A DNA stretch of 64,000 nucleotides from assembly GCF_020859565.1 (NCBI RefSeq), contig NZ_JAJHUO010000004.1, positions 277,842 to 341,841 of the forward strand. The letters run 5' to 3'. Under the pieces are notes generated by a model. The model saw only the letters and a list, made by a program, of their open reading frames with translations, did not search any database and was not told the DNA's origin. This DNA comes from Saccharothrix luteola (GTDB taxonomy: Bacteria; Actinomycetota; Actinomycetes; Mycobacteriales; Pseudonocardiaceae). Both the position numbers and the translations under genes were made by a program. Positions 3,412 to 51,569 of the stretch are shown in pieces. Each line of letters opens with the position of its first letter. Position 1 is the first letter of the stretch.

Positions 3412-3512
3412 GAGTCCTACGTCCAGGACGCGCGAGTCCTACGTCCGGAACACGCGTGTCCTACGTTCGGAACACGCGTGTCCTACGTTCGGAACACCCG
3501 AGTTCAACGCTC
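3412..3512 (+). repeat. 22-bp-period intergenic repeat array, five cores
   Basis: Five 13-bp cores start at 3412, 3434, 3456, 3478 and 3500, exactly 22 bp apart and separated by 9-bp linkers. The core variants in order are GAGTCCTACGTCC twice, GTGTCCTACGTTC twice and GAGTTCAACGCTC once. The array starts six bases after the bioY stop codon. The same order of variants, inverted, occurs on the far side of dinG. See the findings for the family. Confidence 0.9.
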
Positions 3513-3556
3513 GGGACGCGTTGGGGTGTCCGGCCCGCGGTGACGGGGTGGGCGGG

Positions 3557-3562
3557 TACGGT
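3557..3562 (+). promoter_or_regulatory. -10 element TACGGT, leaderless start of dinG
   Basis: TACGGT ends seven bases before the GTG at 3570, and no ribosome site is visible. This is the usual geometry of an actinobacterial leaderless transcript. The start point itself is inferred. Confidence 0.45.
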
Positions 3563-3569
3563 CTTCGCC

Positions 3570-5597
3570 GTGCCCGCCACCACCGCGATCCCCGACACCA
3601 GGACGTTGCTCGCCGTTGCCGTGGAGGCGGTGGGCGGCGCCGAACGCCAGGGCCAGGTCGACATGGCGGAGGCCGTCGAGCGGTCGATCCGGACCGGCGA
3701 GCACCTGGCCGTCCAGGCGGGCACCGGCACGGGCAAGTCGCTGGCCTACCTGGTGCCCGCGCTGCGGCACGCGGTGGCCGAGGAGACGACGGTCGTCATC
3801 TCCACCGCCACCATCGCGCTGCAACGCCAGCTCGTGGACCGCGACCTGCCCCGGCTCGCCAAGGCGTTGCGCAAGGAGCTGGGGCGCGAGCCGAGGTTCG
3901 CGATCCTCAAGGGTCGGCGCAACTACCTGTGCATGCACCGCCTGCACACGGGAGCACCGGACGAGCCGGAGGACGCGGGCCTGTTCGACCCGTTCGCGGT
4001 GTCCAAGATGGGCCGGGAGATCAAGCGCCTGCACGAGTGGTCGTCCGAGACCGAGACCGGTGACCGGGACGAGCTCGTGCCGGGCGTCACGGACCAGGCG
4101 TGGCGACAGGTCTCGGTGACCGCGCGCGAGTGCCTCGGCGTGAACAAGTGCCCGATCGGCGTGGACTGCTTCGCCGAGAAGGCCCGGGCCGAGGCGGGCA
4201 AGGCGGACGTCGTGGTGACCAACCACGCGATGCTCGCCGTGGACGCGCTGGAGGGCTACCAGGTCCTGCCCGACCACGACGTCGTGGTGATCGACGAGGC
4301 GCACGACCTGGTCGACCGCGTCACGTCGGTGGCGACGGAGGAGCTGAGCGCGTCCCTGGTCGCCACGGCCGCGCGGCGCTGCGGGCGGCTGATCGACCAG
4401 ACCGTGGCCGACCGGATGGCCGAGGCGAGCGACGGCCTGGCGATGATCCTGGAGGAGGTGCCGGCCGGTCGGCTGGACAGCCTGCCGCAGGCGTTGGCCG
4501 GTGCGTTGCGGGCGACCAAGGACGCGGCGCACGCGTGCATCACGTCGTTGGGGCCGGAGCGCAAGGAGGACGTGGACGGCGCCACGTCGCGCAAGTTGGC
4601 GATGTCGCTGCTGGACGACGTGCACGACTGCGCCACGCGGATCCTGGAGGCGTTCGACTCCGACCACGACGTGGTCTGGGTGTCCGGTGATTTCGCCGAC
4701 CGCAACAAGCCGCCGTCGTTGCGGGTCGCGCCGTTGGGCGTGGGCGGGTTGCTGCGGGAGCGGCTGTTCGGGAAGCGGACCACGGTCCTGACCTCGGCGA
4801 CGTTGACGTTGGGCGGCACGTTCGACACGTTGGCGCGGCAGTGGGGGCTGCCGGCGGCGTCGGGGGTGCGGAAGGCCGAGGGGACGGCGACGGACAAGGA
4901 GCCGCCGTCGGACCTGAGCGCGCCGCGGTGGAGCGGGCTGGACGTCGGCTCGCCGTTCTCGCACGGGAGCGCCGGGATCCTGTACGTGGCGCGGCACCTG
5001 CCCCCGCCGGGGCGCGACGGGCTGCCACCGTCCTATGTGGACGAGATCGAGGGTCTGGTCAACGCGGCGGGCGGGCGCACGTTGGGGCTGTTCTCGTCGA
5101 TGCGTGCGGCGAAGGCGGCGGCGGAGGCGTTGCGGGACAAGGTGGACTACCCCGTGCTGTGCCAGGGTGACGACGCCACGGGGCAGTTGGTGAAGCGGTT
5201 CGCCGAGGACGCGCAGACGTGCCTGTTCGGCACGTTGTCGTTGTGGCAGGGCGTGGACGTGCCGGGGCCGGCGCTGTCGCTGGTGGTGATGGACCGCATC
5301 CCGTTCCCGCGGCCGGACGACCCGTTGGCGTCGGCGCGGCAGAAGGCGGTGGAGTCGCGCGGCGGCAACGGTTTCCTCACCGTGGCGGCTACTCACGCGG
5401 CGCTGTTGCTGGCGCAGGGGGCCGGGCGGCTGCTGCGTTCGATGAACGACAAGGGCGTGGTGGCGATCCTCGACCCGCGCCTGGCGACGGCCCGTTACGG
5501 CGGGTTCCTGCGCGCCTCGCTGCCGCCGTTCTGGACGACGTACGACCCGGAGGTCGTGCGGGCGGCGCTCAAGCGGCTCGACGCGGCGAACAACTGA
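3570..5597 (+). CDS. dinG: DinG/YoaA-type ATP-dependent DNA helicase with Fe-S domain
   Basis: A 675-residue superfamily 2 helicase of the XPD/DinG group, acting on DNA in repair or recombination. Seen in order: Walker A GTGTGKS near residue 51; four cysteines of the Fe-S domain (NYLC, RECLG, NKCPIG, DCF, about residues 121-200); the DEAH box VIDEAHDLVD near 241; and C-terminal helicase motifs including LWQGVDVPG and the arginine-rich QGAGRLLRS. The GTG at 3570 is chosen because the protein then begins just before the conserved helicase region and a TACGGT element sits seven bases upstream. Length is normal for the YoaA/DinG class. It is flanked by two inverted 22-bp repeat arrays, so it looks like a cassette inside a palindromic element. 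Confidence 0.93.
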   Translation: MPATTAIPDTRTLLAVAVEAVGGAERQGQVDMAEAVERSIRTGEHLAVQAGTGTGKSLAYLVPALRHAVAEETTVVISTATIALQRQLVDRDLPRLAKALRKELGREPRFAILKGRRNYLCMHRLHTGAPDEPEDAGLFDPFAVSKMGREIKRLHEWSSETETGDRDELVPGVTDQAWRQVSVTARECLGVNKCPIGVDCFAEKARAEAGKADVVVTNHAMLAVDALEGYQVLPDHDVVVIDEAHDLVDRVTSVATEELSASLVATAARRCGRLIDQTVADRMAEASDGLAMILEEVPAGRLDSLPQALAGALRATKDAAHACITSLGPERKEDVDGATSRKLAMSLLDDVHDCATRILEAFDSDHDVVWVSGDFADRNKPPSLRVAPLGVGGLLRERLFGKRTTVLTSATLTLGGTFDTLARQWGLPAASGVRKAEGTATDKEPPSDLSAPRWSGLDVGSPFSHGSAGILYVARHLPPPGRDGLPPSYVDEIEGLVNAAGGRTLGLFSSMRAAKAAAEALRDKVDYPVLCQGDDATGQLVKRFAEDAQTCLFGTLSLWQGVDVPGPALSLVVMDRIPFPRPDDPLASARQKAVESRGGNGFLTVAATHAALLLAQGAGRLLRSMNDKGVVAILDPRLATARYGGFLRASLPPFWTTYDPEVVRAALKRLDAANN

Positions 5598-5623
5598 CGC
5601 CGTTTCCGCAGGTCGCGTGTTCT

Positions 5624-5724
5624 GAGCGTTGAACTCGGGGGTCCTGAACGTAGGACACGCGGGTCCTGAACGTAGGACACGCGGGACGCGAACGTAGGAC
5701 TCACGCGACGTGGAGGTAGGACTC
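5624..5724 (-). repeat. 22-bp-period intergenic repeat array, five cores, inverted
   Basis: Five cores start at 5624, 5646, 5668, 5690 and 5712 in the opposite orientation to the array at 3412. Read on the minus strand, the variants are GAGTCCTACCTCC, GAGTCCTACGTTC, GTGTCCTACGTTC twice and GAGTTCAACGCTC. This is the same order as on the other side of dinG, so the GAGTTCAACGCTC unit is innermost on both sides. The array lies between the convergent dinG and phospholipase D genes and ends eight bases before the latter's stop codon. Confidence 0.9.
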
Positions 5725-5732
5725 TCGCGGGG

Positions 5733-7142
5733 TCAGCCGTCGACGAGCAGGCCGCGGAGGGGACCTTGGAGGCGGCCGGCGCGGCGGGAGACGCCCGGGA
5801 GGGCGGTCAGGCGGTGCTTGCCCGGGGCGGTCAGGGTGGGGCGCCAGAGGCGGTCGACGACGTCGTGGGCGGGGCCGGTGACGTCGGACAGCGGGCGTTG
5901 CAGGTGTTCGGACCAGAGGCGCAGCCGGGTGTCGCGCGCGACATCGGGGTCGTCGGTGACGACGTTGACCTCGGTGTCGTTGAACAGGGAGTGCTCGTTC
6001 AGGTTGGCCGAGCCGATGCTCAGCCAGCGGTCGTCCACGATGGCCAGTTTGGCGTGCACGTAGACCGACGAGGACGTCGCGCCGTCGTGCGAGGACAGGG
6101 TGGCGGCGACCAGGCGGTGGTTGCCGTCGTCGGCGTCCAGCAGACGTCCCAGCTGGCCGCGGGTGGTGTCGGCGCCGTTGCTCGGCTTGCGCGGCAGCAC
6201 GAGGACCGTGCGGAAGTCCGGGTGGGGCGGGTTGCGGAGCTTGTCGATCAGGACCTCGGTGATCTCGGGTGACCAGAGGAACTGGTTCTCGAGGTAGATC
6301 AGGCTCCTCGCCGCGCGCAGGGCGCGGAGGTAGGAGTCGAGCAGGCTGAACTCGCCGCGGGCCGCGAAGTCGTAGGTGCGCTCCGGGATCGTCCGCACGA
6401 GCTGGGCCGAGGACGGGCCGGCGGGCGCGGGCGGCGTCGCCGCGGGCAGCTGCTCGCCGGCGATCTCCTGCCAACGACTGCGGAAGTGGTCGGCCACGTC
6501 CGCGACGATCGGCCCGTGCAGGCGCGTCCCGATGTCGTGCCAGCCCAGCGGTTCACGGGGCGGGTGCTCGGCGGTGTCGTGGCGGTCGCCCTCCACCGCG
6601 GTCAGGTCCATGCCCCCGACGAACGCCACCTCGTCGTCCACCACGACGATCTTCTCGTGGTGGCAGTGCAGCGTCCGCTCCCGCGCGTCGATCTCGCACC
6701 GGACCGCGCTGTCGCGCGTGAACTCGCGCTGCGCCGCCAGCACGCGCTTGCGGGTCGGCTCGAACATCGGCACCGGCGGCCCCGCCCACAGCAGCACGCG
6801 CACCGGCACCCGGGACGCGGCCGACGCCAGCAGCTCGCGCAACGTCGGCGAGCCCGGTTCACGGGTCAGCCGGAAGTCCGGGCTCGCGCACCACCCGGCC
6901 AGGTGCACCGACCGGCGTGCCGACGAGATCGCCGACGCGATGGCGGGCAGCACCTCGTGCCCGTCCACCAGCACCTCGACCCGGTTGCCGGTCCGCACCG
7001 GCCGTCGCGGCGTCCACCAGCCGGCCTCCGAGCCGAAGGCCGAACCCCACCCCAGTTTGCGCAACCGTCTCGCGTGGTGCGCGCACAGCAAGCTCTCCAG
7101 CCCGTCACCGAGCTTGGCGTCCAGCACGTCCAACAGGCCCAC
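5733..7142 (-). CDS. Phospholipase D family protein (cardiolipin synthase-like)
   Basis: About 469 residues with two HKD catalytic motifs: HHEKIVVVDD near residue 160 and VHAKLAIVDD near 363, each followed by the usual GG/GSxN segment (FVGGMDL, IGSANLN). The family hydrolyses or transfers phosphodiester head groups of phospholipids; the two-HKD layout fits cardiolipin synthase or phospholipase D. There is no clear signal peptide or strong membrane helix, so it probably acts at the inner membrane face. The start is uncertain: GTG at 7142 is the first in-frame start after the upstream pth2-like stop, but it has no good ribosome site. It follows serB and the Pth2 gene on the same strand and is probably co-transcribed with them. 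Its stop abuts a repeat array. Confidence 0.8.
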   Translation of the reverse strand: MGLLDVLDAKLGDGLESLLCAHHARRLRKLGWGSAFGSEAGWWTPRRPVRTGNRVEVLVDGHEVLPAIASAISSARRSVHLAGWCASPDFRLTREPGSPTLRELLASAASRVPVRVLLWAGPPVPMFEPTRKRVLAAQREFTRDSAVRCEIDARERTLHCHHEKIVVVDDEVAFVGGMDLTAVEGDRHDTAEHPPREPLGWHDIGTRLHGPIVADVADHFRSRWQEIAGEQLPAATPPAPAGPSSAQLVRTIPERTYDFAARGEFSLLDSYLRALRAARSLIYLENQFLWSPEITEVLIDKLRNPPHPDFRTVLVLPRKPSNGADTTRGQLGRLLDADDGNHRLVAATLSSHDGATSSSVYVHAKLAIVDDRWLSIGSANLNEHSLFNDTEVNVVTDDPDVARDTRLRLWSEHLQRPLSDVTGPAHDVVDRLWRPTLTAPGKHRLTALPGVSRRAGRLQGPLRGLLVDG

Positions 7143-7167
7143 GCCGGGGATGGTTACCGCAAATCGG

Positions 7168-9107
<1,940 letters not shown>

Positions 9108-9123
9108 CTATGCCAGACAGCGA

Positions 9124-9174
9124 CGAGCCCCGAGACCGCGGTCCGAGGGATCGGACGCTGGTCGTCGGGGCTCG
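9124..9174 (-). terminator. Terminator hairpin after ctaD
   Basis: CGAGCCCCGA at 9124-9133 pairs with TCGGGGCTCG at 9165-9174, and an inner GTCCGA/TCGGAC stem lengthens the structure. It lies 30 bases past the ctaD stop and before serB on the same strand, so it separates the two transcripts. No U-run follows, as is common at high GC. Confidence 0.75.
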
Positions 9175-9203
9175 CCGTTGAACCTGCGCTCAGGTTACAA
9201 GCG

Positions 9204-10991: not shown

Positions 10992-11154
10992 GGTGCCTCC
11001 TGCACTGTCTGGTTCTGGCTTCGCCGGTGGGTGGCGCCGCCGGCTCATCGGATCGTAGACGGCGGTGTTCCGGGTGGTGCGGCTGGGCTGCCCCCTGGAT
11101 CAAGTGAGGTAGCGCAGGTCACAGGATTGGATGGCCGCTGCTCCGCAGACGGCG

Positions 11155-11254
11155 GCGAGGTCGCCGGGAAGTCGATCGTTCGCGCCCTGATTCTCCGACG
11201 ATCGAAAGCGTGATCTCCGGAGAATGAGGACGCGAACGATCGACGCGACCTCGC
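11155..11254. repeat. Long imperfect inverted repeat upstream of ctaD
   Basis: The left arm 11155-11196 and right arm 11219-11254 are complementary except for a six-base insertion in the left arm and two mismatches. The core GTCGATCGTTCGCG at 11171-11184 pairs perfectly with 11231-11244. The loop is about 22 bases. It could be an RNA fold in the ctaD leader or a regulator site. Confidence 0.7.
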
Positions 11255-11312
11255 GGGGTCGGCGTGATCGGAGTGGTGAAGCAGGGGGTGGGGCGGGGGT
11301 GGGGTAGCACGA

Positions 11313-11340
11313 GGGCCGCTCCCGGGGGTGGGAGCGGCCC
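11313..11340 (-). terminator. Terminator hairpin of the LAxTG gene
   Basis: GGGCCGCTCCC at 11313-11323 and GGGAGCGGCCC at 11330-11340 form a perfect 11-bp stem with a six-base loop. It begins 23 bases past the stop codon of the minus-strand gene ending at 11364. Confidence 0.85.
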
Positions 11341-11363
11341 TGTGGGTGAGGTGGGTGCTGGGG

Positions 11364-12065: not shown

Positions 12066-12125
12066 GGGTGCTGCTCCGCGGGTTCGAGGGCTGACCGGGT
12101 GGATCGAACTACACCGGGCATCCCT

Positions 12126-12144
12126 CTATCGAGGTAGCCCATTC
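12126..12144 (-). promoter_or_regulatory. Element conserved upstream of both LAxTG genes (copy 1)
   Basis: The sequence CTATCGnGnTAnCCCnTTC occurs 61-79 bases before the start at 12065. A 15/19 match lies at nearly the same distance before the paralogue at 12997. On the minus strand it reads GAAyGGG, a short gap and CGATAG, so it may be a shared promoter or operator. Confidence 0.5.
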
Positions 12145-12208
12145 AGACGAAGCGGGTTGGAGTGCATTTGTTATGAGTCGGTGATCTCAACGTTCGGTAA
12201 CGACCGTT

Positions 12209-12997: not shown

Positions 12998-13055
12998 GGG
13001 GCTCTCCGCATGGCTCGATGTGGCGTTCGGCGGATCGGACTGCTCCGTCGCTGCT

Positions 13056-13074
13056 CTATCGCGTTAACCCGTTC
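13056..13074 (-). promoter_or_regulatory. Element conserved upstream of both LAxTG genes (copy 2)
   Basis: CTATCGCGTTAACCCGTTC lies 59-77 bases before the 12997 start and matches the element at 12126-12144 at 15 of 19 positions. The shared distance from the start codon suggests a kept promoter rather than chance. Confidence 0.5.
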
Positions 13075-22554: not shown

Positions 22555-23379
22555 ATGGACCTGTCGCGCAGATCGTTCTCCGGGGGAACCGCCGTCGCCG
22601 CACCGGCGACCGCGACCCCCGGGACGACCGCCGCGTCGGCCCGGACGCCGCGTCCACACCGGCCGTCCACACCGCACCTGCTGGAAGCCGAGCACCTGGT
22701 CGGCTACCTGTCGTTGCCGACGTGCCCGTTGGCCAACAACACCTACAAGGAGCCGGACCAGCCGAACGTGGTCCGGTGGGGCTCGCCCGGTGACGCGTCC
22801 GGGTGGGTCAACCAGAGCCAGTGCGCGTCGTTCCTGACCGCCGTGCTGAAGCGCACGTACAAGTGGGCGACTTCAGGGTTCTTCAGCGCCCACTTCGGCG
22901 TGGCGAGCCCGTTCGCGCGGGACTACCGGGCGGCGTTCGCGGAGCGGGAGATCCCGCACTTCGAGCGCGTCACCAGGGTGGCGGACCTTCGTCCGGGTGA
23001 CCTGATCGCCGTCGACTACCGCAACGACCAGGACACCAACACCGGGCACGTGGTGATGGTGCGTTCGGTGAAGGGCGTCTACACCGCGCCGACCCGGGCC
23101 CTGAACTTCCCCGGTGAGACGCAGTACGCGGTGGAGGTCGTGGACTGCACGTCCGAGCCGCACGGCGTGTACGGGGTGGGCAACTACTTCCGGTTCCCGG
23201 ACAACCGGATCTTCAACGCCACCGCCGCGACGGACGGCGCGGGGTACGGGCACATGATGTTCTACGCGTCCGACGCCACCGGCGAGTTCAGCCGGTACCG
23301 GTGGAGCGTGAACACGTCGTCCGCGCGGACGTTCCCGGTGTCGGACCGTCCGGTCTCCGCCGCCCGCGTCGTGTCCTGA
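22555..23379 (+). CDS. Secreted cysteine amidase/peptidase-like protein (NlpC/CHAP-like layout)
   Basis: A 274-residue protein starting MDLSRRSFSGG, a twin-arginine-like motif, followed by an Ala/Thr-rich leader to about residue 28. The mature part has NQSQCASFLTAVLKRTY (Cys near 89) and, about 70 residues later, DLRPGDLIAVDY and NTGHVVMVRSV with a His. This Cys-then-His order with a GDLI strand is the layout of NlpC/P60 and CHAP amidases that cut cell-wall peptides. I cannot assign the exact family. The ATG at 22555 has a GGGGGAG site. Its stop codon overlaps the first core of a 22-bp repeat array. Confidence 0.6.
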   Translation: MDLSRRSFSGGTAVAAPATATPGTTAASARTPRPHRPSTPHLLEAEHLVGYLSLPTCPLANNTYKEPDQPNVVRWGSPGDASGWVNQSQCASFLTAVLKRTYKWATSGFFSAHFGVASPFARDYRAAFAEREIPHFERVTRVADLRPGDLIAVDYRNDQDTNTGHVVMVRSVKGVYTAPTRALNFPGETQYAVEVVDCTSEPHGVYGVGNYFRFPDNRIFNATAATDGAGYGHMMFYASDATGEFSRYRWSVNTSSARTFPVSDRPVSAARVVS

Positions 23380-23539
23380 CCGTTGAACTCGGGGTCCCTG
23401 AACGTAGGACACGCGGGACCCGAACGTTCGACACACGGGGCCCGGACGTTCGACACGCGCGGGTTTCAGGTTTGCGTCGGGGTGGTCGAACACTCAGGTC
23501 CCCCGTGTCGAACACTCAGGGCCCGTGAGTTCTACGTTC
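23378..23539. repeat. 22-bp-period repeat array, four inverted and three direct cores
   Basis: Cores in inverted orientation start at 23378, 23400, 23422 and 23444, then three in direct orientation at 23483, 23505 and 23527. Within each group the spacing is exactly 22 bp. Variants include GTGTCGAACGTTC and GTGTCGAACACTC beside the GTGTCCTACGTTC type. The array fills the whole space between two convergent genes, from the last base of one stop region to four bases before the other. Confidence 0.85.
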
Positions 23540-23542
23540 GGG

Positions 23543-34982: not shown

Positions 34983-35120
34983 CCGGCGGAGTGCCCCACA
35001 CCCCCGCCGGAGACGAGGGGTCGACGTCCCGACCGGTGCTCCGCCCTGCCGGTTGGGACGCCGCGGTGTGCCCGCCCCGTGCTCACGAGGACGGCCGACC
35101 TGGGGGCGGCCGTTCTCGTG
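34983..35120 (+). ncRNA. Candidate structured RNA with three stem-loops
   Basis: Three hairpins follow each other: CCGGCGG/CCGCCGG (34983-35010), GTCCCGACCGG with CCGGTTGGGAC (35026-35059, 11 pairs with one G-U) and a 14-pair stem with one wobble (35084-35097 with 35107-35120) that looks like a terminator. They lie in the 321-base gap between divergent SARP and sialidase genes, where no terminator is needed for either. The plus strand is favoured because the strongest stem is at that end. I match it to no known RNA class. Confidence 0.35.
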
Positions 35121-35159
35121 CCCGGACGTTCCCGTGCCCAGACGCTCTCGTGCCCGGCG
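35112..35159 (+). repeat. Three tandem 16-bp repeats
   Basis: Units start at 35112, 35128 and 35144; the first is GTTCTCGTGCCCGGAC, and the others differ at two to four positions. The first overlaps the right arm of the terminator-like stem. Use unknown. Confidence 0.6.
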
Positions 35160-41836: not shown

Positions 41837-44800
41837 CTACTTGGGCTTGTAGGTGGGCCAGGCGTCGTGGGTCATGTTGACCGCGCACGCCATCGTCGAG
41901 CCGACCATCGCGCCGAGGGTGACGGCGGTGTTGTCGACCGTGGTCGACGCGCCCGTCACCGCGACCGGGAGCGCGATGCACTTGAGGAAGAACCGGGCCG
42001 GGTTGAGCGCGATGTAGTACCCGGTCCGCTTGCCGATGATCCGCGCGTGCATGCCGAGCCACCGGCCGGCGGACGCGACCCCGCGGCCGACCGCCTGCAC
42101 GCCCCGACCGACGGCACGGGCGCCGCTCGCGACCGCCTTCGCGCCGCTGACCACGCCGTTCTTCACCGCGGTCGCGCCCGCGCGCACCTTGGCCAGCGCC
42201 TTGCCGCACCTGCCCGCGTTGTGCACGAGCACGTCCGCGTCACCGGCCACGACCTGGAAGGTGTGCACGGTGTCGACGGTCAGGTTGTGGACGGTCCGCT
42301 GCTCGGTCCACGACCGGACGCCGACGACCGTGCCCTCCGAGAGCCGTTGCCCGGCCACGAGGTCGCCTGCCTCGGCCCACGCGCCGTCCGCCCAGAACGG
42401 GTGGCCGTCGGTGGTCGTGAGGGTGGACGTGCGGCCCTCGGCCTCCACCGTCACCTCGACCATCTGCTTGACGCCGGCACGAGTGATCAGGTCGGTCACG
42501 GTGAAGGCACCGGACTCGCCGGTCGTCGGATCGGTCGCCGCGACCTGGTCACCGACGTGGACGTCCTCGATCCGCTTGGTCGAGCCGTCGCCCATGCGCA
42601 CCGCCGTGTCACCGGTGAAGCTGTTGGACGCGACCAGCGCGCACGCCGCGCCCACGAGCTCGTCGGCGTGCTTGGCGCCCATCCGCACGCCCTTGGCCGC
42701 ACGCACCGCGCCGACGCCGTACGGTCCGGCGAACAGCGACAGCACCGACACCCCGGCCCAGATGCAGCTCTCCACGTCGCCCTCGGTGACGCACCGCTTG
42801 CCGTCGTTGTAGCCGCTGATCTCGGCGAGGCCGTTCAGCAGGGCCTTGCCCTCGGCCTTCCAGCCCTGCCACTTCGGCCACTTCCACGCGAAGCCGCCGC
42901 CACCGGCGCCGGACTTGCTCGCCGCGGACGTGTTGCTCACCGGGTTGCCGGCCTTCTGCACGGCAGCGTCGTAGATCTTGTCCGTGCCGCGCTTGGCGTC
43001 GGCCACCACGTCGCGGTTCGCCCCGACCTGGTTCGCGGGCAGCTTCGGGTCGGAGGACACCGTCTTGGGCATGTTCGTCACCGGCGCGTGCGCCGCGCCC
43101 GACACGGTCCTGGGCGTGTGCCGCGCCGAGTACTGCGCCGCCGCCTTGGCCTGCGCGGTCACCCGCCGCTTGCGCTCGTGCTCCGCCCGCCGGGCCGCCT
43201 CGGCGCGTTCCGCCGCGGTGGGGCCGCCGCCACCCCTCTTGTAGCAACTGCCGCAGCTGCCGCCGCCGCCCGGACCCGAGTACGCCGGGCCGCGCGCGTA
43301 GTCCGGGTAGGTGCCGCTCGCGCCCGGCGACTTCTTCCGCTTCTTGCCCGACAGGTTGTCCGCCTGCTGGCGGATCAACCACGACAGGTCGGAGGCGTAG
43401 TCGCAGAAGACGATGCACTCGTAGGTCTCGACCCACTGGGACGGACCGTCGTCATCGTCGTCGTCGAACCAGTCCCACGGCCACGACCAGTGACCGTCCG
43501 GGTCGACCTGGCCGACCGGGTCGCCCGCGCCGTAGGTGTAGCGGTTGGCGCGGATGCCGTCGCCGCCCTGGAACGGGATGTCGTCACGCGAGGTGAAGAC
43601 GCCGGCCGACGGGTCGTACCACCGCGCGCCCATGTCGACCTGGCCGGTCGCCGGGTCGGTCCAGTCGCCCTGGTAGCCGAGCGGACCGGTGTCGCCGGTC
43701 TTCGCGGTGACCTCGCCGAACGGGTCGTAGGAGGTCCGGTCGGACAGCGCCTGGCCGTCCGGGGCGATCGCGCCGATCACGTCGCCGTGGCCGTTGGCCA
43801 CCGGCACGCGTGACGTTTCGCCCTTCCGGGTGGCCAGCAGCTCGTCACCCGGGCCGCGGGCGAACGTGGCGGCGCCGTCGGACACCACCTCGTCGTCCAG
43901 GCCCGCGTAGGTGAACGCGGCGCCGTTGCGGGTGGCGACCCGGTCCAGGCCGTCGTAGGTGAAGGTCTGGCCCGCCGCGCCCACCATCCGGTCGAACGCG
44001 TCGAACGCGAACGGCTCGGTGTGCCCGGAGCTGGTGCGGCTCGCCGTCGTGCCGCGCGGGCTGTAGGCGTAGGTGTAGTCGCCGTCGGACAGCAGGCGGT
44101 TGCGCTCGTCGTAGGTCGAGGTCTTCGCGCCCGCCTTGGTGCGGTTGCCCGCCGCGTCCCACTCGTACGGCGTGGTGACGCCGCCCGTGGTGGCGGTCTT
44201 CAGCCGGCCGACCGCGTCGTAGGTGTAGGTGGTCTCGACGCCGTTCTCGGTCTTGCTCGACACCAGGTCCAGCTCATCGCGCTTGTATGCGGTTGACGAA
44301 ATGCTCTGCCCCGCCGAGCCCGCCAGGACGTCCGTGTGCAGTCGACCGTGGTCGTCATACGAGAGCGTTCGGGTGCGGCCCGCGCCGTAGCCGATCGTCT
44401 TCAGCGCGCCGGCCGCGTCGTAGCCGTAGGTCCGGGTGACGCCCGCCAGTCCTTCGGCGACTGCGTGCAATCGCCCCTTGAGGTAGCTGTAGGTGGCGGT
44501 GCCGGCCGCGTCGCGGCGGGTGGTCGGGTTGCCGTCGGCGTCGTAGCCGAACTCCGCCGCGCCGCCCGGACCGGCCGTGGTGAGCAGGTTGCCGCGGTCG
44601 TCGTAGGAGTAGGTGTCGGAGCCGACGCGGATCGCTCGGCCCACCACGTCGTAGGCGATGTCCCGAGCGGTGGTGGGCTGCTCGGCTCCGCTGCCGGTCT
44701 CGGCGGTGAGCTGGTCGGCCGGGTCGTGGGTCCGGGTCCGGACCACGCCGCCGGGCGCGGTCAGCTTCACCTCGTTGCCGTTCGCGTCGTACTCCGAAGT

Positions 44801-47800
44801 CCACGTCCGGTCGGTCGGGTGCGCCGCGGTGGCGGGCTCGATCACCTTCTCCGGCAGGCCCCACGCGTTGTAGGTGGTGATCGTGCGGTGCCCGCGCGGG
44901 TCGGTGTAGCGGGTCAGGTTGCCCGCCGCGTCGTAGCCGAACTCCTGCGTGACGCCTTCCGGCTCGACCTGCCTGACCAGCCGGTCGCCCGCGTCGAACT
45001 CGAACGTCGTGGTGTTCAGCTTGGCGTCGGTGACGGTGGTCGTGTTGCCCGCCGGGTCGTGGCCGAACCTCGTGGTGCGCAGGACCGTGCCGTCGGGCTT
45101 GAGCTCGGACTTCGCCACCTGGTCGCCGAACAGGTCGTAGGCGAGGCGGGTGGTGCGACCGAGGCCGTCGGTGACCCGCACGGCGTTGCCCGCCGCGTCG
45201 TAGCCGCGGTGCGTCGGCACGCCCGCCGGGTCGGTCTCCTTGATCAGCTGCCCGAGCGTGTCGTAGGTGAACGCCGCGGCGGCGCCGGAGGGCGCGACGG
45301 CCGAGGTCACGTTGCCCAGGTCGTCGTAGCGCTGCCACGCGGTGAACGTGCCGGTGGTGGGCTTGCGCTCGTACTGGGTCGCGGTGACCGGGCGGTCGAG
45401 GTCGTCGTAGGTCGACTCGGTCCGCGCGCCGTCCGGCAGGGTGGTGGAGAGCACCTGGCCGGACCGGGTGAACGCGTAGCGCGTGACGGCCCGGCCGGTG
45501 GTGGCGGGCTCGTCCCAGGTGACCACGCGGTCCAGCTGGTCGTAGGCGAGCCTGGTGGCGTGACCGCGGGCGTTGACGATCTCGGTGACGTTGCCGTTGC
45601 CGTCGTAGGACGTCTTCACGGTCGGCGTGACGCCCTGGTGCGTCGGCGAGCTCGCCGCGACCACGCGACCGAGGCGGTCGTACTCGGCGGTGGACACGTT
45701 GCCCAGCGCGTCGGCCGTGGCCACGACGTCGTCGAACGTGTTGTAGCCGGTCTTCGTGGTCGGCTTGGTGGTCGTCGGCGCGCCGCCGTCGCGTTCCACC
45801 GACACGGCCGCGCCGGTGGCCGTGACCTGGCGGCCCAGCTCGTCGAAGCCGTACGTGGCGGTGTTCAGGCGCGGGTCGGTGACCGACGTCTGGTGGCCGC
45901 GCTGGTCGTAGGTGAACTTCGTGACCCGGTCGGTGATGCCGTCGGTGACGGTCTCCTCGACCACGTTGCCCACGTCGTCGTGCCGGTAGCTCACCGCCTC
46001 CGGCGCCGCGGACACCTCCCACGGCGCGTTGGACGCCTTGCCGCCGGTGACCGCGCGGGTGACGTTGTCGCCGCCGTCGTAGGAGTAGGTGGTGGTGCGG
46101 CGCAGGCCCGTCGGGTCCACCACGACCGTCGCGAGCCGGCCGAGCCGGTCGTGGGTGTGCTCGGTGACGGACTTGCCGTTGGCGGCGACCTTGCGGGTCA
46201 GGTTGCCCGCGCCGTCGTAGGTGTTGTCCTCCAGCACGAAGTCGCGCTTGCTGCCGTCGGGGTTGCGCAAGTCCTTGAGCACCTTGCGGCGCAGCAGGCC
46301 GTCACCCCAGTACTGGAACTCCGTGCGGCGGCCCATCGCGTCGGTCTCGCTCGCGAGCCTGCCCGCGAAGTCGTAGGACAGCGACGCGAGGAGCAGGTAG
46401 CCGTTGGCCGGCGCGGGCACGCCCGCCGGGTCGCTGCGCCAGTCGCGCAGCCGCACCTCGGCGAGGCTGCCGCGGCTGGTGTGGGCGAAGTCGAACCGGT
46501 TGCCGTTCGGGTCGGTCTCCGAGGTCCGCTGCCCGAACGCGTCGTGCTCGTAGGACGTCTCGCCGCCCTCGGCGTCGGTCTCTCGGGCGAGGCGGTTGTG
46601 CTGGTCGTAGTCGTACTTGGTGACGCGCGGCGCGTCGTTGCCCTGGGCGTCGGCCTCCTCGACCTGGGTGATGTTGCCGTCGACGTCGAACGTGTTCGTG
46701 GTCCGCCGCTGGTGCTTCTCGCCGCTGACGGCGTCCGCGGTGAGCTGGCCGGTGGTGGTCCGGAGCCTCGACATGGCGTCGTAGGAGAACGTGGTGGTGA
46801 CGCCGGCGGGGAAGCTGTCGGAGATCTCCTTGACCGTCACGCGGCGGCCCAGGTTGTCGTAGGTGTACTCGGTGACCAGGCCGTTCGGCGCGGTGACGCG
46901 GGCCAGGTCGCCGTTGTTGTAGTAGGCGTAGCGGGTCGTCCTGCCCCGTGCGTCCATTGTGGACGCGAGCAGGGCGGCGGGCGGTGAGCCGCCGTTGACG
47001 GCCGCCTCCGCGCCGTTGGTGTACGTGTGCTTGACGAAGCTGCCGTCCGGCGCGGTCTCCTGGACGAGCTGGCCGGTCGGGTGGTAGCCGAACGTGGTGC
47101 GGTAGGTGTTGTCGGTCGCGCTCGCCGAGCGGCCGTCACGCGACTCCAGCGGCAGGAAGTTGCGCGGGTCGTACTCGTCGGTGACGGTCGTCGGGTACGT
47201 CTCGTAGGTGGTGTGGCACTCGGTCGCGGTGCGGCAGGTCTTCTTCGAGGTGATGTTGCCGCGCGCGTCGTAGCCGAGGGTGACCGTGTCGCCGTTCTCG
47301 TCGGTGACGACGGTGAGCTGCCCCTTGTCGTCGTAGGAGTACGAGCGGATGCTCATGCCCTCCGCGCCGTAGCGGACGAACACCGGGCCGCCGGAGCCGT
47401 TCGGGATCGTGGTGCAGAACGACGGGTCGTTCGGGTCGGGCTTGCCGCACGTCTCCGCGGGTGGTGCGGGTGTGGAGGTCGGCTCGCCCGGCCGGTCCTC
47501 GGGGCGTGCCTCCAGGCCCAGCGGCTGGCCGAGGCGCAGCAGCCAGCCGCCCAGGGCGTCGTACTCGTACAGGCTCGGCCGGTTCGCCGGGTCGAGCACC
47601 TCGACCGTGCGGCGCAGGTCGTCGTCACCGCCGTAGACGGCGGGCGGGCCGACGCGCCACGTGCCGCCGTTGTCGTCGGTGTGCTCCTTCACGCGGTCGC
47701 GGGTGGTGTCGTAGGTGGTGGTGGCGGCGACCTTGCCGCTGGGCAGGGTGATCTTCGCCAGCTGGTCGGCCTGGTTGTTGGCGGCGCGGTGCGCGGTGGT

Positions 47801-50800
47801 GGTCGTCGGGCCGACCGGGCCGGCGTAGACGGCGACCTCGTCGATCACGCCCGAGAAGTGGCGCTGCGGCGTCGTGCCCCAGGCGGGCCACGTGCCGGTC
47901 GCGTAGGCCGCGCCGACCTGGTTGAACGTCAGCTTCTCGTGGTCGACCTGCTTGCCGGTGAGCTCGCCGACCTTCGCGCCGTCGAGGAACAACGTCTGGG
48001 TGGCGCCCATCGAGCTGAGCACGACGTGGTGCCACTTGCCGTCGTTGACCAGGACGCCGCTGGTGATCGGGCTGACCGAGCCGACGCCGAACTGGCCGCG
48101 CAGCTTGCCGTCCGTGCCGACGTACAGGATCGGTACGCCGGTGGTGGACGCGCTGCCGAGCGCCTTGTCCTGGTAGCCGAGCAGCGGACCGCCCGAGCCC
48201 GTGACCGAGGACTTGAACCACAGCTCGACCGCGCCGTCACGGCTCTTCTTCAGCGTGCCCTTGGGCAGGTCGACGGCGGACGTCGTGCCGTTGAAGGACG
48301 CGGCGGTGTCGGTGGCGTTGATGCCCGGGGTGTTGAGGGTGATGTTCTTGTAGGTGCCGACGTCCTTGCCGAGGTTGACGGCCACCTCGCTGGCGGCGGC
48401 CGTGCCCTCGGGCTCGCCGAGCCGCCAGTAGGACTCGGGGCGCGAGTCGAGCACGGTGGTGCGGTAGTGCGAGCCGGCGGTGTACTCGTAGCCGGTGCAG
48501 GCGGTGCCCACGCACGCCTTGGTGAGCAGGTCGCCGGTGTAGGTGTAGCTCCACGTCGTCTGGTCGGCCTTGACGGCGGTCACGCGGTCGCCGGTCCAGG
48601 TGAACGTGATGAACCGGCCGGCGGTGTTGGTCTGGCTGTTGGACACCTGGGCTTTCTGGAGCTTGCCGGTGGTGGTGTCGTAGGTCAGCACGACCGCGCG
48701 GTTGGCGCTGTCGGTGATCCGGTTCAGCCTGCCGTTGAGGGAGAACTGGTAGGTGGTGCCGGACAGGTCGAGCAGCCGCCACGCGGTCGTGTCGACGGTG
48801 AGCTTGGCCTGGCGGCCGAACGGCGCGGCGAACGTGCCGTCGGCGTTGCGGCCGAAGCGGACCTGTTGGCCGTCCGGGTAGGTGACCACGACGTTGCCGG
48901 AGCCGTCGTCGTCCGGGACGACCTTCATGTCGTAGCGGGTGGACCAGCCGGCGCCGAAGATGCCGTCCCGGCGCGGGTCCAGGCTGTTGTAGGTGCGGAC
49001 CACGCGCAGCTCCGGGCCGACCGTGGTGACCGAGGCGTCAACGGCGGCGGTGGAGTAGTTGCCCGTCTGCGGGTCGAACTCCTGGTCCTTCGTGCCGTAC
49101 GGGCCGCCCGCGAGGCGTGAGGTGATCTCCGGCTGCGGGACGCTGGTCAGGACCGTGGAGTAGGGCGAGATGATCTCGTTGGTGGCGTCCTTGACGTACG
49201 CGCGCCAGTCGTAAGCCTTGCTCCACTTGAGCGTGCCCGCCGGGACGGTCCAGGCGGTCTTCGCCTGGTAGCCCGAGTTCACGCAGTTGACCGGCTTGTT
49301 CGCGGCGTCGCGTTCGCAGACCTCGAACTTGAACTGCATGGTGACGCTCGGCGGCGCGTCGACGTCCAGCGCGCGTGCCCAGAGCTGCGGGGTGAGGGTG
49401 CGCGCCTGGTAGCCGTTCGGCGGGTACAGCTCCTGCACGACCGGCGGGATGTCGAAGACTTCCAGCACGATCCGGCCGGGCGGGACCTGGTGGTCGGTGA
49501 ACACCGGACCGCCGGTCTTGACCATGGTGAAGTCGAGGAAGTACTTGCCCGGCGGCAGGGCCTTGATCGTGGCGTCGAGGGTGACGCGCTGGTTGCGGTT
49601 CACGGTGGCAGTGAGGTTGGCCGAGCGCTGCTGGACGACCGACGCGCCGGTCTTGGCGTTGTACGCGCGGTAGGCCAGGTAGTAGTCGCCGGGGGCCCAG
49701 GCGGCGGCACTCTTGTTGGTGACCGCGATCTTCACCTTGCCGTCCTGGTTCTGCAGCACGGGCGGGTTCGGCACCGGGTTGGCCAGCGCGTACGTCGCGT
49801 TGTACGGGCTGTGGGTGACGTAGAGGCGTGGCGGGTTGGCGGTGGCGGGGCCGGTGAACTTCTTGCCGGAGCCGTCGCCGCTCGCGCGCAGGGAGATGCC
49901 GTTGTCGGCCTGCGTGCCGTCGACCCACTTCTGCACCAGGTCGCGTCCGCCGCCGCCGAGGTTGATCAGCTCGCCGGCGGTGGGGCAGTTGGAGGACGAC
50001 TGGCCGAACGCGATGTGGCCGTGGGCGAAGGAGCGTTCGGCGAGTTGGCGGCCGGTGCTCGGGCCGGGGAAGTCGACGTCGTCGCTGGACGCCCAGCTCT
50101 GCGTGACCGGGTGGACGGTGACGTTGCGCGGCTTGCACGAGTCGGCGTCGTAGTTCACCAGCCACAGCTGCGCGCCGAAGATCGTGTGGTGGCGGAGCTT
50201 GTCGACCAGGCCGCCGAAGCGGAGGTAGGAGGCGGCGTTGGGGCCGACCATCAGGGTGTTGCCGCCGGGGGACGACGAGGTGCCGTTGACGTAGAGGCTG
50301 CTGTCGGCGGCTTCGCCGGTGACCGGGAGCTGGACGGTCGGGTCGACCGCGACGGGGTAGGCGGCCTGGGCCAGCCAGGTCCCGTCCAGGGTGAGCCGGA
50401 GGGCTTGGCGGCCGTTGTGGCTGGTCAGGGTGTAGGTGACGGCGGTGGAGCGGACGCCGTTGGCGTCGACCATGTCGCCGGGCGGGATGACGGCCCTGGT
50501 CGTGTCGGTGCGGTCCTTGAGCAGGACCTGGTTGTGCTCGACGTGCGCGGTGAGGTTCTTGAGGGTGAGCGGGAACGTGAAGTCGGTGGGGCCGGGGCGG
50601 GTGAGGACCAGGGTCTCCTTCACGCCGCCCGGCTGCGACTCCAGCCGCAGGTCGACGCCCGGCTGGACCCCGGGGTAGGTGGCCGTGCTGCCGTTCGCGG
50701 CGCCGTCGACCTCGTTGGCGCCGGCGAGGCCGTAGGAGACCTCGTGGTCGGCGTCGACGGTGAGGGTGGTGAGGCGTTCGGCGTCGGCGTGGCGGGCCAG

Positions 50801-51349
50801 GCGGACGTCCACCTCGTCGGCGGCGTTGTGCCAGCCTTGGTCGTCCGGGACGAGCCGCGGCTCGATCGGCTTCCACTGGTCGCCGTCGCGGTAGTGGACG
50901 GGACCGGCGGAGAACTCGGTGGTCTCGGTGCCGTCCGGGTTCGTGTAGACCTTCTCGTGCTTGGTGCGCGCCTCGGGCTTCTCCTGGCTCTTGCCCTCTT
51001 CGAAGCCCTTGGTCTCGGTGGCGGGCGGCGTTTCCACCGAGGCGGTGTTGTGCGGATGGACGTCCCACTCGACCTTGGGGTAGCGGGATCTCAGCGAGTC
51101 GGGGACGGTGTGGTTGTCCGGCGCGCCGTCGAGGTGGTCGGGGTCGGCTTGCGCTTCACCCCACCGTTGGCCGGGTCCCGGCACGACCTCCGTGTCCGCC
51201 GCGTGGGTCTCCGACCGCCCCCACCCGTCGACCGCGTCCCCGCCGCTGGTCGCGGTGACGGCCAGCACCACGGCGACGGCGACCACCTTGGCCGGGCCGG
51301 ACGCCCACAGCGCTCCGAGCAGCCCGGCTTTGCGCACACGCGACGACAT
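41837..51349 (-). CDS. Giant Rhs/YD-repeat protein with Hint domain and unknown C-terminal tip
   Basis: A 3,170-codon gene. Parts in order: signal/membrane segment (about residues 12-35), a DNRLRE-type domain (about 336-517), a beta domain, the Rhs entry segment VRTYNSLDPRRDG (about 800), an inserted LamG domain (about 956-1190), dozens of YD repeats to about 2540, and the Rhs core end GARWYDPSAGVFTSRD (about 2580). A Gly/Cys-rich linker, a pretoxin Hint domain with TTDGHPFW and VLVHN (about 2905-3045) and a 125-residue tip follow. The layout is that of a polymorphic toxin: a Rhs cage with a self-cleaving release module. The tip has a repeated GxxAVxxG amphipathic segment and two hydrophobic stretches, and no nuclease motif is seen. 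The ATG at 51349 has GGGGGAG upstream. Confidence 0.9.
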   Translation of the reverse strand: MSSRVRKAGLLGALWASGPAKVVAVAVVLAVTATSGGDAVDGWGRSETHAADTEVVPGPGQRWGEAQADPDHLDGAPDNHTVPDSLRSRYPKVEWDVHPHNTASVETPPATETKGFEEGKSQEKPEARTKHEKVYTNPDGTETTEFSAGPVHYRDGDQWKPIEPRLVPDDQGWHNAADEVDVRLARHADAERLTTLTVDADHEVSYGLAGANEVDGAANGSTATYPGVQPGVDLRLESQPGGVKETLVLTRPGPTDFTFPLTLKNLTAHVEHNQVLLKDRTDTTRAVIPPGDMVDANGVRSTAVTYTLTSHNGRQALRLTLDGTWLAQAAYPVAVDPTVQLPVTGEAADSSLYVNGTSSSPGGNTLMVGPNAASYLRFGGLVDKLRHHTIFGAQLWLVNYDADSCKPRNVTVHPVTQSWASSDDVDFPGPSTGRQLAERSFAHGHIAFGQSSSNCPTAGELINLGGGGRDLVQKWVDGTQADNGISLRASGDGSGKKFTGPATANPPRLYVTHSPYNATYALANPVPNPPVLQNQDGKVKIAVTNKSAAAWAPGDYYLAYRAYNAKTGASVVQQRSANLTATVNRNQRVTLDATIKALPPGKYFLDFTMVKTGGPVFTDHQVPPGRIVLEVFDIPPVVQELYPPNGYQARTLTPQLWARALDVDAPPSVTMQFKFEVCERDAANKPVNCVNSGYQAKTAWTVPAGTLKWSKAYDWRAYVKDATNEIISPYSTVLTSVPQPEITSRLAGGPYGTKDQEFDPQTGNYSTAAVDASVTTVGPELRVVRTYNSLDPRRDGIFGAGWSTRYDMKVVPDDDGSGNVVVTYPDGQQVRFGRNADGTFAAPFGRQAKLTVDTTAWRLLDLSGTTYQFSLNGRLNRITDSANRAVVLTYDTTTGKLQKAQVSNSQTNTAGRFITFTWTGDRVTAVKADQTTWSYTYTGDLLTKACVGTACTGYEYTAGSHYRTTVLDSRPESYWRLGEPEGTAAASEVAVNLGKDVGTYKNITLNTPGINATDTAASFNGTTSAVDLPKGTLKKSRDGAVELWFKSSVTGSGGPLLGYQDKALGSASTTGVPILYVGTDGKLRGQFGVGSVSPITSGVLVNDGKWHHVVLSSMGATQTLFLDGAKVGELTGKQVDHEKLTFNQVGAAYATGTWPAWGTTPQRHFSGVIDEVAVYAGPVGPTTTTAHRAANNQADQLAKITLPSGKVAATTTYDTTRDRVKEHTDDNGGTWRVGPPAVYGGDDDLRRTVEVLDPANRPSLYEYDALGGWLLRLGQPLGLEARPEDRPGEPTSTPAPPAETCGKPDPNDPSFCTTIPNGSGGPVFVRYGAEGMSIRSYSYDDKGQLTVVTDENGDTVTLGYDARGNITSKKTCRTATECHTTYETYPTTVTDEYDPRNFLPLESRDGRSASATDNTYRTTFGYHPTGQLVQETAPDGSFVKHTYTNGAEAAVNGGSPPAALLASTMDARGRTTRYAYYNNGDLARVTAPNGLVTEYTYDNLGRRVTVKEISDSFPAGVTTTFSYDAMSRLRTTTGQLTADAVSGEKHQRRTTNTFDVDGNITQVEEADAQGNDAPRVTKYDYDQHNRLARETDAEGGETSYEHDAFGQRTSETDPNGNRFDFAHTSRGSLAEVRLRDWRSDPAGVPAPANGYLLLASLSYDFAGRLASETDAMGRRTEFQYWGDGLLRRKVLKDLRNPDGSKRDFVLEDNTYDGAGNLTRKVAANGKSVTEHTHDRLGRLATVVVDPTGLRRTTTYSYDGGDNVTRAVTGGKASNAPWEVSAAPEAVSYRHDDVGNVVEETVTDGITDRVTKFTYDQRGHQTSVTDPRLNTATYGFDELGRQVTATGAAVSVERDGGAPTTTKPTTKTGYNTFDDVVATADALGNVSTAEYDRLGRVVAASSPTHQGVTPTVKTSYDGNGNVTEIVNARGHATRLAYDQLDRVVTWDEPATTGRAVTRYAFTRSGQVLSTTLPDGARTESTYDDLDRPVTATQYERKPTTGTFTAWQRYDDLGNVTSAVAPSGAAAAFTYDTLGQLIKETDPAGVPTHRGYDAAGNAVRVTDGLGRTTRLAYDLFGDQVAKSELKPDGTVLRTTRFGHDPAGNTTTVTDAKLNTTTFEFDAGDRLVRQVEPEGVTQEFGYDAAGNLTRYTDPRGHRTITTYNAWGLPEKVIEPATAAHPTDRTWTSEYDANGNEVKLTAPGGVVRTRTHDPADQLTAETGSGAEQPTTARDIAYDVVGRAIRVGSDTYSYDDRGNLLTTAGPGGAAEFGYDADGNPTTRRDAAGTATYSYLKGRLHAVAEGLAGVTRTYGYDAAGALKTIGYGAGRTRTLSYDDHGRLHTDVLAGSAGQSISSTAYKRDELDLVSSKTENGVETTYTYDAVGRLKTATTGGVTTPYEWDAAGNRTKAGAKTSTYDERNRLLSDGDYTYAYSPRGTTASRTSSGHTEPFAFDAFDRMVGAAGQTFTYDGLDRVATRNGAAFTYAGLDDEVVSDGAATFARGPGDELLATRKGETSRVPVANGHGDVIGAIAPDGQALSDRTSYDPFGEVTAKTGDTGPLGYQGDWTDPATGQVDMGARWYDPSAGVFTSRDDIPFQGGDGIRANRYTYGAGDPVGQVDPDGHWSWPWDWFDDDDDDGPSQWVETYECIVFCDYASDLSWLIRQQADNLSGKKRKKSPGASGTYPDYARGPAYSGPGGGGSCGSCYKRGGGGPTAAERAEAARRAEHERKRRVTAQAKAAAQYSARHTPRTVSGAAHAPVTNMPKTVSSDPKLPANQVGANRDVVADAKRGTDKIYDAAVQKAGNPVSNTSAASKSGAGGGGFAWKWPKWQGWKAEGKALLNGLAEISGYNDGKRCVTEGDVESCIWAGVSVLSLFAGPYGVGAVRAAKGVRMGAKHADELVGAACALVASNSFTGDTAVRMGDGSTKRIEDVHVGDQVAATDPTTGESGAFTVTDLITRAGVKQMVEVTVEAEGRTSTLTTTDGHPFWADGAWAEAGDLVAGQRLSEGTVVGVRSWTEQRTVHNLTVDTVHTFQVVAGDADVLVHNAGRCGKALAKVRAGATAVKNGVVSGAKAVASGARAVGRGVQAVGRGVASAGRWLGMHARIIGKRTGYYIALNPARFFLKCIALPVAVTGASTTVDNTAVTLGAMVGSTMACAVNMTHDAWPTYKPK

Positions 51350-51435
51350 ACCGCTCCCCCAGTCGACTGAGCAGGCCGTCGCGGACGCTAGGCAACTTCA
51401 CTTCCACCTCACTTCCCTTCCACTTCCACCCGCGA

Positions 51436-51569
51436 GAGTCCTACGTCCAGTGCGCGAGAGTCCTACGTTCAGGCAACCCGAGTTCAACGCTCAGCACAGC
51501 CGGCGGTGTGCTGAGCGTTGAACTCAGGGGTTCTGAACGTAGGACTCTCGAGGGCTGAAGGTAGGACTC
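51436..51569. repeat. 22-bp-period repeat palindrome, three direct and three inverted cores
   Basis: Direct cores start at 51436, 51458 and 51480; inverted ones at 51513, 51535 and 51557, all 22 bp apart within each half. The two 63-base halves are inverted copies. The centre is a perfect 19-bp inverted repeat, GAGTTCAACGCTCAGCACA at 51480-51498 with its complement at 51507-51525, around an eight-base loop. It ends five bases before the stop of the second SARP gene and lies 86 bases before the Rhs start. Confidence 0.9.

Follow-up and report, generated by a model that had tools for sequence, protein, structure and literature searches.

Repetitive extragenic palindromic (REP) sequences and the bacterial interspersed mosaic elements (BIMEs) bind gyrase, IHF or Pol I. 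The heptamer repeats of SARP regulators are promoter elements with a spacing of 11/22 bp, while Mu/Tn7-type transposases bind several ~22-bp sites at each transposon end. To our knowledge, the ending of transcription in high-GC actinomycetes and the separation of convergent genes are poorly understood. As far as the accessible parts of the following three papers go, GTAG REPs often provide a stop codon (PMC3733652); the TAACTGA repeats of Beggiatoaceae and cyanobacteria form dispersed intergenic sets of 2–6 direct copies with a patchy spread, show no functional pattern among their neighbours and, in the main species, mostly lie just upstream of start codons (PMC4679880); and the actinobacterial protein BldC binds head to tail to direct repeats of variable number in either orientation (PMC5859096). 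Here, we describe a family of intergenic repeats recognized in a 64,000-nt stretch of Saccharothrix luteola DNA (contig NZ_JAJHUO010000004.1, positions 277,842 to 341,841 of the forward strand; hereafter the window), in which directional units with a 13-bp core follow each other at an exact 22-bp step and form arrays close behind stop codons.

The repeat family is real, large, exact and, within the scope of our search, undescribed, and it is of the extragenic gene-end repeat kind, new in form; its function we infer. We found no match to a described repeat class: Rfam gave no match at gathering score within the window, the accessible literature searched (including Pseudonocardiaceae genome papers, with most subscription journals outside its scope) held no prior description, and the core strings appeared only in papers unrelated by title. 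The arrays resemble REPs and BIMEs in number, placement and mosaic orientation (i.e., they are high-copy, short, dispersed, extragenic, clustered and located at gene ends), and their edge unit can supply a stop codon as GTAG REPs do (PMC3733652), yet they fail three REP features, namely, a foldable unit, a terminal tag and the REP mobiliser RAYT. Specifically, the unit is not a palindrome or stem-loop, and there is no GTAG/CGTC terminal tag: GTAG occurs only if the middle triplet of the core ends in T, and then within the core of one strand, and species sets dominated by the CCA triplet are without it. The gapless 21/22-bp step and the distinct last unit also set the arrays apart from REPs. 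The likeness to SARP sites lies in direct repeats in helix register in actinomycetes. The linkers of the arrays (9 bp) are partly conserved themselves and the orientation is mixed, unlike in clustered regularly interspaced short palindromic repeats (CRISPR); compared with miniature inverted-repeat transposable elements, one-way arrays have no inverted ends, and by eye no clear target duplication was seen. The likeness to TAACTGA repeats is loose (dispersed intergenic direct repeats, patchy spread, neighbours without a functional pattern) and sets a heptamer before start codons against a 22-bp unit behind stop codons (PMC4679880), whereas BldC sites, compared by description only, are 9-bp AT-rich repeats, AATTNNNNC, at promoters (PMC5859096).

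Anatomy, abundance and distribution of the 22-bp units

The first-pass annotation of the window had counted 23 copies of a 13-bp core at four places, and direct reading together with a scan confirmed this number, with one core being degenerate. Array A has five cores on the (+) strand (3412–3512) and array B five on the (−) strand (5624–5724). Array C has four on the (−) strand (23378–23456), then (+) cores at 23505 and 23527 as well as the degenerate (+) core TGGTCGAACACTC at 23483, which is kept in the 22-bp register, and array D has three on the (+) strand (51436–51492) followed by three on the (−) strand (51513–51569). Within each window run, successive cores followed at a step of exactly 22 bp with 9 bp between them, as had been claimed; 22 bp is the step in this genus, and 21 bp, likewise two helical turns, also occurs elsewhere in the family. 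Tandem Repeats Finder placed arrays at the same four sites. The scan list holds 22 cores without the degenerate one, and 14 of the cores, spread over the four arrays, are exact. At a threshold of ≥14 bits, a 13-bp position weight matrix (PWM), the training set of which consisted partly of these very loci, found 22 matches in the window, with 15 pairs at a 22-bp distance, whereas the reversed sequence had 1 match and no such pair. When 105 named loci were added to the window (901,618 bases in total), the corresponding numbers were 610 matches and 404 pairs at 22 bp, and 4 and 0 after reversal; since the named loci were chosen for carrying arrays and the PWM was trained partly on them, only the reversed control is neutral.

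The expected genome-wide excess of the unit was pronounced: the pattern GWGTYSWACGYTC had 511 exact matches in the 10.3-Mb genome (assembly contamination estimate, 8.84) and 1 match when reversed. Because the 14 exact window cores fall in four arrays, we estimate ~150 arrays genome-wide. Across 128 arrays, 487 of 500 same-strand steps were exactly 22 bp, with 9 of 44 bp and 4 of other values. Conservation of the unit (consensus CSCGY-GWGTCCTACGTTC-RGRAC) began sharply at −5 of the core and faded past +17; because it spans from five bases before the core to five behind it, adjoining footprints tile without gaps. The unit is directional, and runs have a distinct end: outside Actinophytocola, GARTTSAACGYTC was the last unit in 107 of 151 runs and occurred in only 3 of 423 earlier units, while the first unit ended in ACCTCC in 18 of the 151 runs. 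Runs that face each other kept preferred distances, i.e., 19 bp in 18 of 26 "−+" joints and 33 or 34 bp in 22 of 36 "+−" joints, and the 20–21 bp separating facing terminal units were variable in sequence. Some arrays, e.g., L087, contained 44-bp higher-order repeats. An internal dyad of the unit was considered and rejected, as an ad hoc score was below zero at every centre, the best centre (CGCG at −1.5) lying outside the core.

The repeat family is confined to Pseudonocardiaceae in the genomes sampled. A two-unit pattern matched 20 of 297 family genomes and 14 of 25 genus genomes, to which a looser core added genome G206 (15 of 25). When the middle triplet was left free and a step of 21 or 22 bp allowed, 36 of 294 Pseudonocardiaceae genomes in 11 of 46 genera matched, and all reversed controls gave 0. 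None of the 391 genomes of the class sampled outside Pseudonocardiaceae matched, with the S. luteola genome being the sole match among the 394 class genomes sampled. Among the matches listed, the named hosts were Saccharothrix species, Actinophytocola and one Lentzea, with a step of 22 bp in Saccharothrix and Actinophytocola and of 21 or 22 bp in genera g45, g16 and g26. In other genera, many arrays start straight after stops, e.g., TGACCCGCGAGTTATACG in G206, and elsewhere the nearest called stop is more distant. For array-less genomes, Tandem Repeats Finder runs on 54–60 kb each of G110, G021, G288, G232 and G255 revealed no repeated family that could be a diverged equivalent; G110, G288 and G232 had isolated, unrelated arrays with a 21- or 22-bp period.

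Among the matches listed, G206 had no arrays between 2.37 and 5.12 Mb of its 7.35 Mb, which looks clustered, and all arrays of G022 lay within 2.47–8.89 of 11.79 Mb. In G228, inverted-run pairs (C3:16382-16543 and C4:205703-205822) have units and linkers alike on both arms and so form long inverted repeats, unlike in Saccharothrix.

Position at gene ends and persistence among relatives

Arrays are over-represented between convergent genes, and divergent gene pairs seldom have one between them. With genes called by our own codon-usage program (in which starts are rough), 110 of 120 arrays could be placed, after dropping nine at locus edges and one mostly within a called gene; 60 were convergent, 43 tandem and 7 divergent. 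For comparison, about 26, 149 and 131 of the remaining intergenic gaps (≥60 bp) in these loci were convergent, tandem and divergent, respectively. The link to gene ends that the first-pass annotation had drawn from four arrays proved strong. For the 103 arrays flanked by one or two stops, the outer core lay ≤10 nt from a stop in 68 (2,000 random placements: mean 43, maximum 54) and ≤25 nt away in 87 (2,000 random placements in the same gaps: mean 59, maximum 70). Tandem arrays were closer to the upstream stop than to the next start in 39 of 43 cases, so that with only 7 of 110 arrays between divergent genes, the promoter location of SARP and BldC operators was not what we observed. Among the flanking gene ends, 259 of 331 were 3′ ends, and just 7 of 577 paired units (window and named loci) lay wholly inside called genes.

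At the level of single runs (n = 159, after 18 close to locus ends had been dropped), the head footprint lay ≤25 nt from a same-strand stop in 67 runs, with 0 as the most frequent distance, and the tail lay ≤25 nt from an opposite stop in 53, with −7 as the most frequent distance. Arrays behind stops were in sense in 81 cases and in antisense in 61, and in 20 of the latter the array's own edge unit spelled TGA. The stop beside an array head was TAA in 21 of 53 cases versus 45 of 732 elsewhere (window and L031–L135; Fisher p = 4.6e-11). We considered whether the stop codon is an intrinsic part of the element head and rejected this idea: T(A/G)A preceded 47 of 58 heads located ≤15 nt from a called stop, but none of 30 heads whose same-strand stop lay farther off; it preceded 6 of 37 heads lacking a same-strand stop over 400 nt and 25 of 625 random positions. 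As T(A/G)A is tied to close called stops, the stop belongs to the gene rather than to the element, which leaves the TAA excess unaccounted for.

A region syntenic to the window was obtained from 18 of the 24 other genus genomes, and sites A, B and C recurred in 6, 8 and 8 of these 18 relatives, respectively. Arrays were present at site A in G000, G172, G159, G296, G127 and G215 (degenerate in G088); at site B in G000, G172, G159, G088, G274, G296, G292, G215 and G127; at site C in G000, G172, G088, G240, G296, G292, G215, G127 and G224 (with a collapsed remnant in G159); and at site D in G000, G159 and G292, with G224 having an array beside the same gene. G261, G268 and G143 carry arrays elsewhere but none in the region syntenic to the window. 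Between orthologs, the number of units at site B varied from 3 to 6. In a tree of 17 orthologs, with the root placed by us on G021 and six genus genomes left out (including the array-bearing G206), the array-bearing genomes formed one clade, outside which lay five genomes without any genome-wide array match. The site B array of G274, the sister of G261, is interrupted by an insertion sequence of ~0.9 kb with the ends GCGTTATTCAGAAG...CTTCTGAATAACGC (L144 and L161; orthologous to window 5624–5724). In the array-less G288 (L154 and L328), an unrelated ~32-bp tandem repeat lies behind the gene of site A (window 3412–3512).

Seven G206 loci, with the cores GTYATACG or GTYGTACG, were compared with the other loci. 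Two of them (L211 and L219) have counterparts in the main clade with an array at the same gene end, namely, L108 for L211 and both L077 and L075 for L219. A third, L206, corresponds to L033 and L120, whose same gap has no array, and the remaining four match none of the compared loci. The third unit was GAAATGTGC in four of the seven G206 loci.

The cores also differed between species. The triplet of inner units was CCT in 92% of 36 (B-16314) and 94% of 35 (S26), CCA in 84% of 31 (ALI-22-I) and 8 of 8 (an Actinophytocola metagenome-assembled genome), and CGT in 12 of 12 in A. gossypii. In comparison, triplets were mixed in the S. luteola genome (CCT 67% and CGA 33% of 43), in G159 and in B-16348. 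These rows are not all independent, as some named genomes appear identical to G-numbered ones. Since sites persist while their sequence changes, either a shifting recognition factor or copying between arrays is indicated, and these data do not separate the two.

Arrays as proposed protein sites and the rival explanations

The reading that we favour, tentatively, is that the arrays may be clustered sites for a putative DNA-binding protein and act as gene-end boundaries; the binding, the multimerisation and the effect on transcription are what we infer. In this scheme, a sequence-specific protein would multimerise head to tail, such that every two helical turns would accommodate one protein or dimer, and the bound row directly past the stop codon would halt or slow RNA polymerase and spare the neighbour gene, an effect that would matter above all between convergent genes. 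Arrays with two orientations would serve both strands, and inverted-repeat arrays would add a strong RNA hairpin. The two-turn step of 21 or 22 bp, the gapless footprints and the directionality of the unit would be expected if a protein oligomerised along DNA, and BldC, as far as its description is accessible, provides an actinobacterial precedent for head-to-tail binding (PMC5859096). We count in favour of this reading the exact 22-bp steps, the gapless footprints, the preferred distances of facing runs amid variable centres and the distinct last unit, together with the 21-bp genera, the weak RNA structure of one-way arrays, the species differences in the dominant triplet, the bias toward stops and convergent genes and the lack of a T-rich terminator in a simple scan around the four window arrays.

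A multimeric DNA-binding protein had already been suggested in the first-pass annotation; gapless two-turn tiling and directionality speak for it, but no such protein was found. We clustered 331 flanking proteins (flanks up to 300 nt, proteins of ≥35 aa), and none of the 14 leading clusters inspected was a convincing common flanking gene. The largest cluster, with 9 proteins of 7 genomes, was assigned by Pfam to an ABC-transporter ATPase family, and smaller ones were LacI-like (4 from 4 genomes), GntR/FCD (3 from 3) or orthologous sites. Because LacI, GntR/FCD and ABC proteins form very large families, these clusters were not taken as candidates, though LacI and GntR are DNA-binding.

Besides the failure of a binding protein to emerge from this clustering, several observations weigh against boundary sites for a protein. 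Several close relatives lack arrays with no visible harm, namely, G292 and G240 at site A, G261 and G240 at site B, where both stops overlap as CTAG, and G296 and G127 at site D. At site A, G261 and G274 have a common half-unit relic compatible with a deletion between GTCC repeats, and the number of units varies from 3 to 7 between orthologs. None of the 19 Actinophytocola runs ends in a GARTTSAACGYTC-type unit. The mixed triplets of the S. luteola genome and of G159 are not expected from a single strict recognition code, and copying between arrays could equally produce the species differences. About 150 arrays in about 10 Mb are far too few for a general terminator. Moreover, a slight excess of linker matches between facing arms (see below) leaves room for RNA pairing. 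Exact, directional two-turn arrays, together with relatives that lack them at the same gene pairs, offer a natural experiment for 3′ ends and read-through.

A more far-reaching version, which we regard as rather doubtful, is that a subset of the Pseudonocardiaceae has a gene-end system dedicated to this role, in which a protein polymerising directionally on stop-flush arrays would form a roadblock or insulator without a classical terminator, and in which this protein and its several hundred sites would co-evolve (triplet by species, 21- or 22-bp step by genus).

A close rival to protein sites, and itself a serious possibility, is a selfish extragenic repeat of the REP/BIME type that was once spread by an ancestral factor acting in trans, was tolerated at 3′ ends, where it does least harm, and now turns over by recombination. 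The hundreds of copies, their mosaic orientation and their extragenic location at 3′ ends fit such a repeat, as do the edge units that spell TGA on the opposite strand in 20 of 61 cases (cf. GTAG REPs in the accessible part of PMC3733652) and the tolerated absence of arrays in relatives. G254 (L263–L282) adds larger intergenic mosaics, built from 21-bp units and containing inverted runs as well as shared spacers, to its short stop-flush arrays; these mosaics may be closer to a mobile form. On the other hand, one-way arrays hardly fold, and exact spacing and sharp footprints are seen again in several genera. RAYT as the mobiliser found no support: the Y1 transposase family PF01797 had no match in the S. 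luteola genome and, within the genus, occurred in just 5 of 25 genomes, of which one was array-less. Of the mobile element envisaged in the first-pass annotation, dispersal stands, as it must have occurred, whereas the window arrays mostly occur at the same gene ends in relatives, and neither of the mobilisers tested (PF01797 and, below, PF09299) fits. If the family is selfish, it would be REP-like without the REP palindrome or the known REP mobiliser, which raises the question of what spreads the arrays.

That transcribed arrays form hairpins which end or protect messages, the other function first proposed for them, appears unlikely and holds best for inverted arrays. Folding z-scores against dinucleotide shuffles were obtained for 113 arrays (those with fewer than three cores or longer than 260 bp excluded) and averaged −12.5 for 28 convergent, −8.5 for 20 divergent and −6.5 for 3 mixed arrays. 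In contrast, the mean z-scores of the 62 one-way arrays were −1.3 on one strand and −1.4 on the other, and 18% and 27% of them, respectively, had z < −2; because one-way arrays hardly fold, a strong hairpin is not common to all arrays. The centres between facing terminal units are apparently partly self-complementary (by eye), and facing arms match above shuffled ones, both in linkers (convergent: 0.561 versus 0.535, reached by 43 of 1,000 shuffles; divergent: 0.559 versus 0.515, 9 of 1,000) and in cores (convergent: 0.905 versus 0.851, 0 of 1,000; divergent: 0.840 versus 0.813, 15 of 1,000), although these matches are inflated by species flavour because the shuffles cross species. Strong GC-rich hairpins also lie near arrays of G206 (L196, L201, L211, L215, L219 and L223), some of them beginning, by eye, inside the last unit. 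Against RNA elements speak the occurrence of arrays behind stops in both sense (81) and antisense (61) and the lack of a T-rich tail around the four window arrays. Specifically, a simple scan for T-rich intrinsic terminators found 0 sites in window 3000–6200, 22800–24000 and 51000–52200 (shuffles: 0.8, 0.7 and 0.4), i.e., the GC-rich hairpin with a U run that defines such terminators was not seen there, and only inverted arrays fold well.

It is improbable that the arrays arose neutrally, by slippage duplication and homogenization by gene conversion of a motif formerly common at gene ends: the differences in unit number between orthologs and the 44-bp higher-order repeats, as in L087, would fit, but the strict 22-bp register (4 odd steps in 500), the distinct last unit and the preferred distances between opposite strands argue against it. 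Least probable, and already weakened, are ends of Mu/Tn7-type transposons persisting as small non-autonomous copies, for although tiled ~22-bp sites, inverted runs and a distinct last unit are shared, the Mu-transpos_C family PF09299 of the cognate DDE transposase gave no match in the S. luteola genome and, within the genus, occurred in 5 of 25 genomes, of which three were array-less, so that a Mu/TnsB-type mobiliser found no support, and comparisons of sites with and without an array showed no clear target duplication.

The window arrays and their neighbours

The four window arrays had been described as lying outside genes and usually ending near stop codons. By our gene calls, all of them fall between genes, the one exception being a two-base overlap of the first core of array C with a stop codon, and the distances from the outer core to the nearest stop are indeed short (A, 6 nt; B, 8 nt; C, −2 and 3 nt; D, 5 nt). 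Array A consists of five direct units (3407–3517, (+) strand) with the terminal unit GAGTTCAACGCTC at 3500, and its first core begins 6 nt past the TAA stop of a gene for a BioY family protein (2830–3405, (+) strand). Array B, also of five direct units (5619–5729, (−) strand), lies between convergent genes for a helicase (Helicase_C_2, DEAD; 3540–5597, (+) strand) and a phospholipase D-like protein (5733–7142, (−) strand), with its head adjoining the stop of the latter.

The left run of array C has four units (23373–23461, (−) strand), the terminal one of which contains the TGA stop of a gene for a 274-aa protein with a weak CHAP match under the Pfam cut-off (22555–23379, (+) strand). Its right run (23483–23544, (+) strand), with cores at 23483 (degenerate), 23505 and 23527, adjoins with its tail the stop of a family 20 glycosyl hydrolase gene (23543–25258, (−) strand). 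Array D has a left arm of three units (51431–51497, (+) strand) and a right arm of three units (51508–51574, (−) strand), between which lies a centre (51493–51512), AGCACAGCCGGCGGTGTGCT, i.e., 20 self-complementary bp separating the two terminal units. The outer core of the right arm is 5 nt from the stop of a gene for a SARP-type regulator (BTAD, Trans_reg_C, TPR; 51575–54361, (−) strand). Because the window neighbours (BioY, helicase, phospholipase D, family 20 hydrolase and SARP-type regulator) are diverse, no regulon is obvious.

Taken together, the observation of the first-pass annotation is confirmed and its interpretation partly supported. Two further features of the window were noted. 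A 3170-codon reading frame (41837–51349, (−) strand) adjoins array D, and its C-terminal part, the sole part scanned, matches a pretoxin HINT domain. An intergenic 16-bp tandem repeat, CGGACGTTCTCGTGCC, is present in 3.2 copies at 35107–35157 and is unrelated to the 22-bp family.

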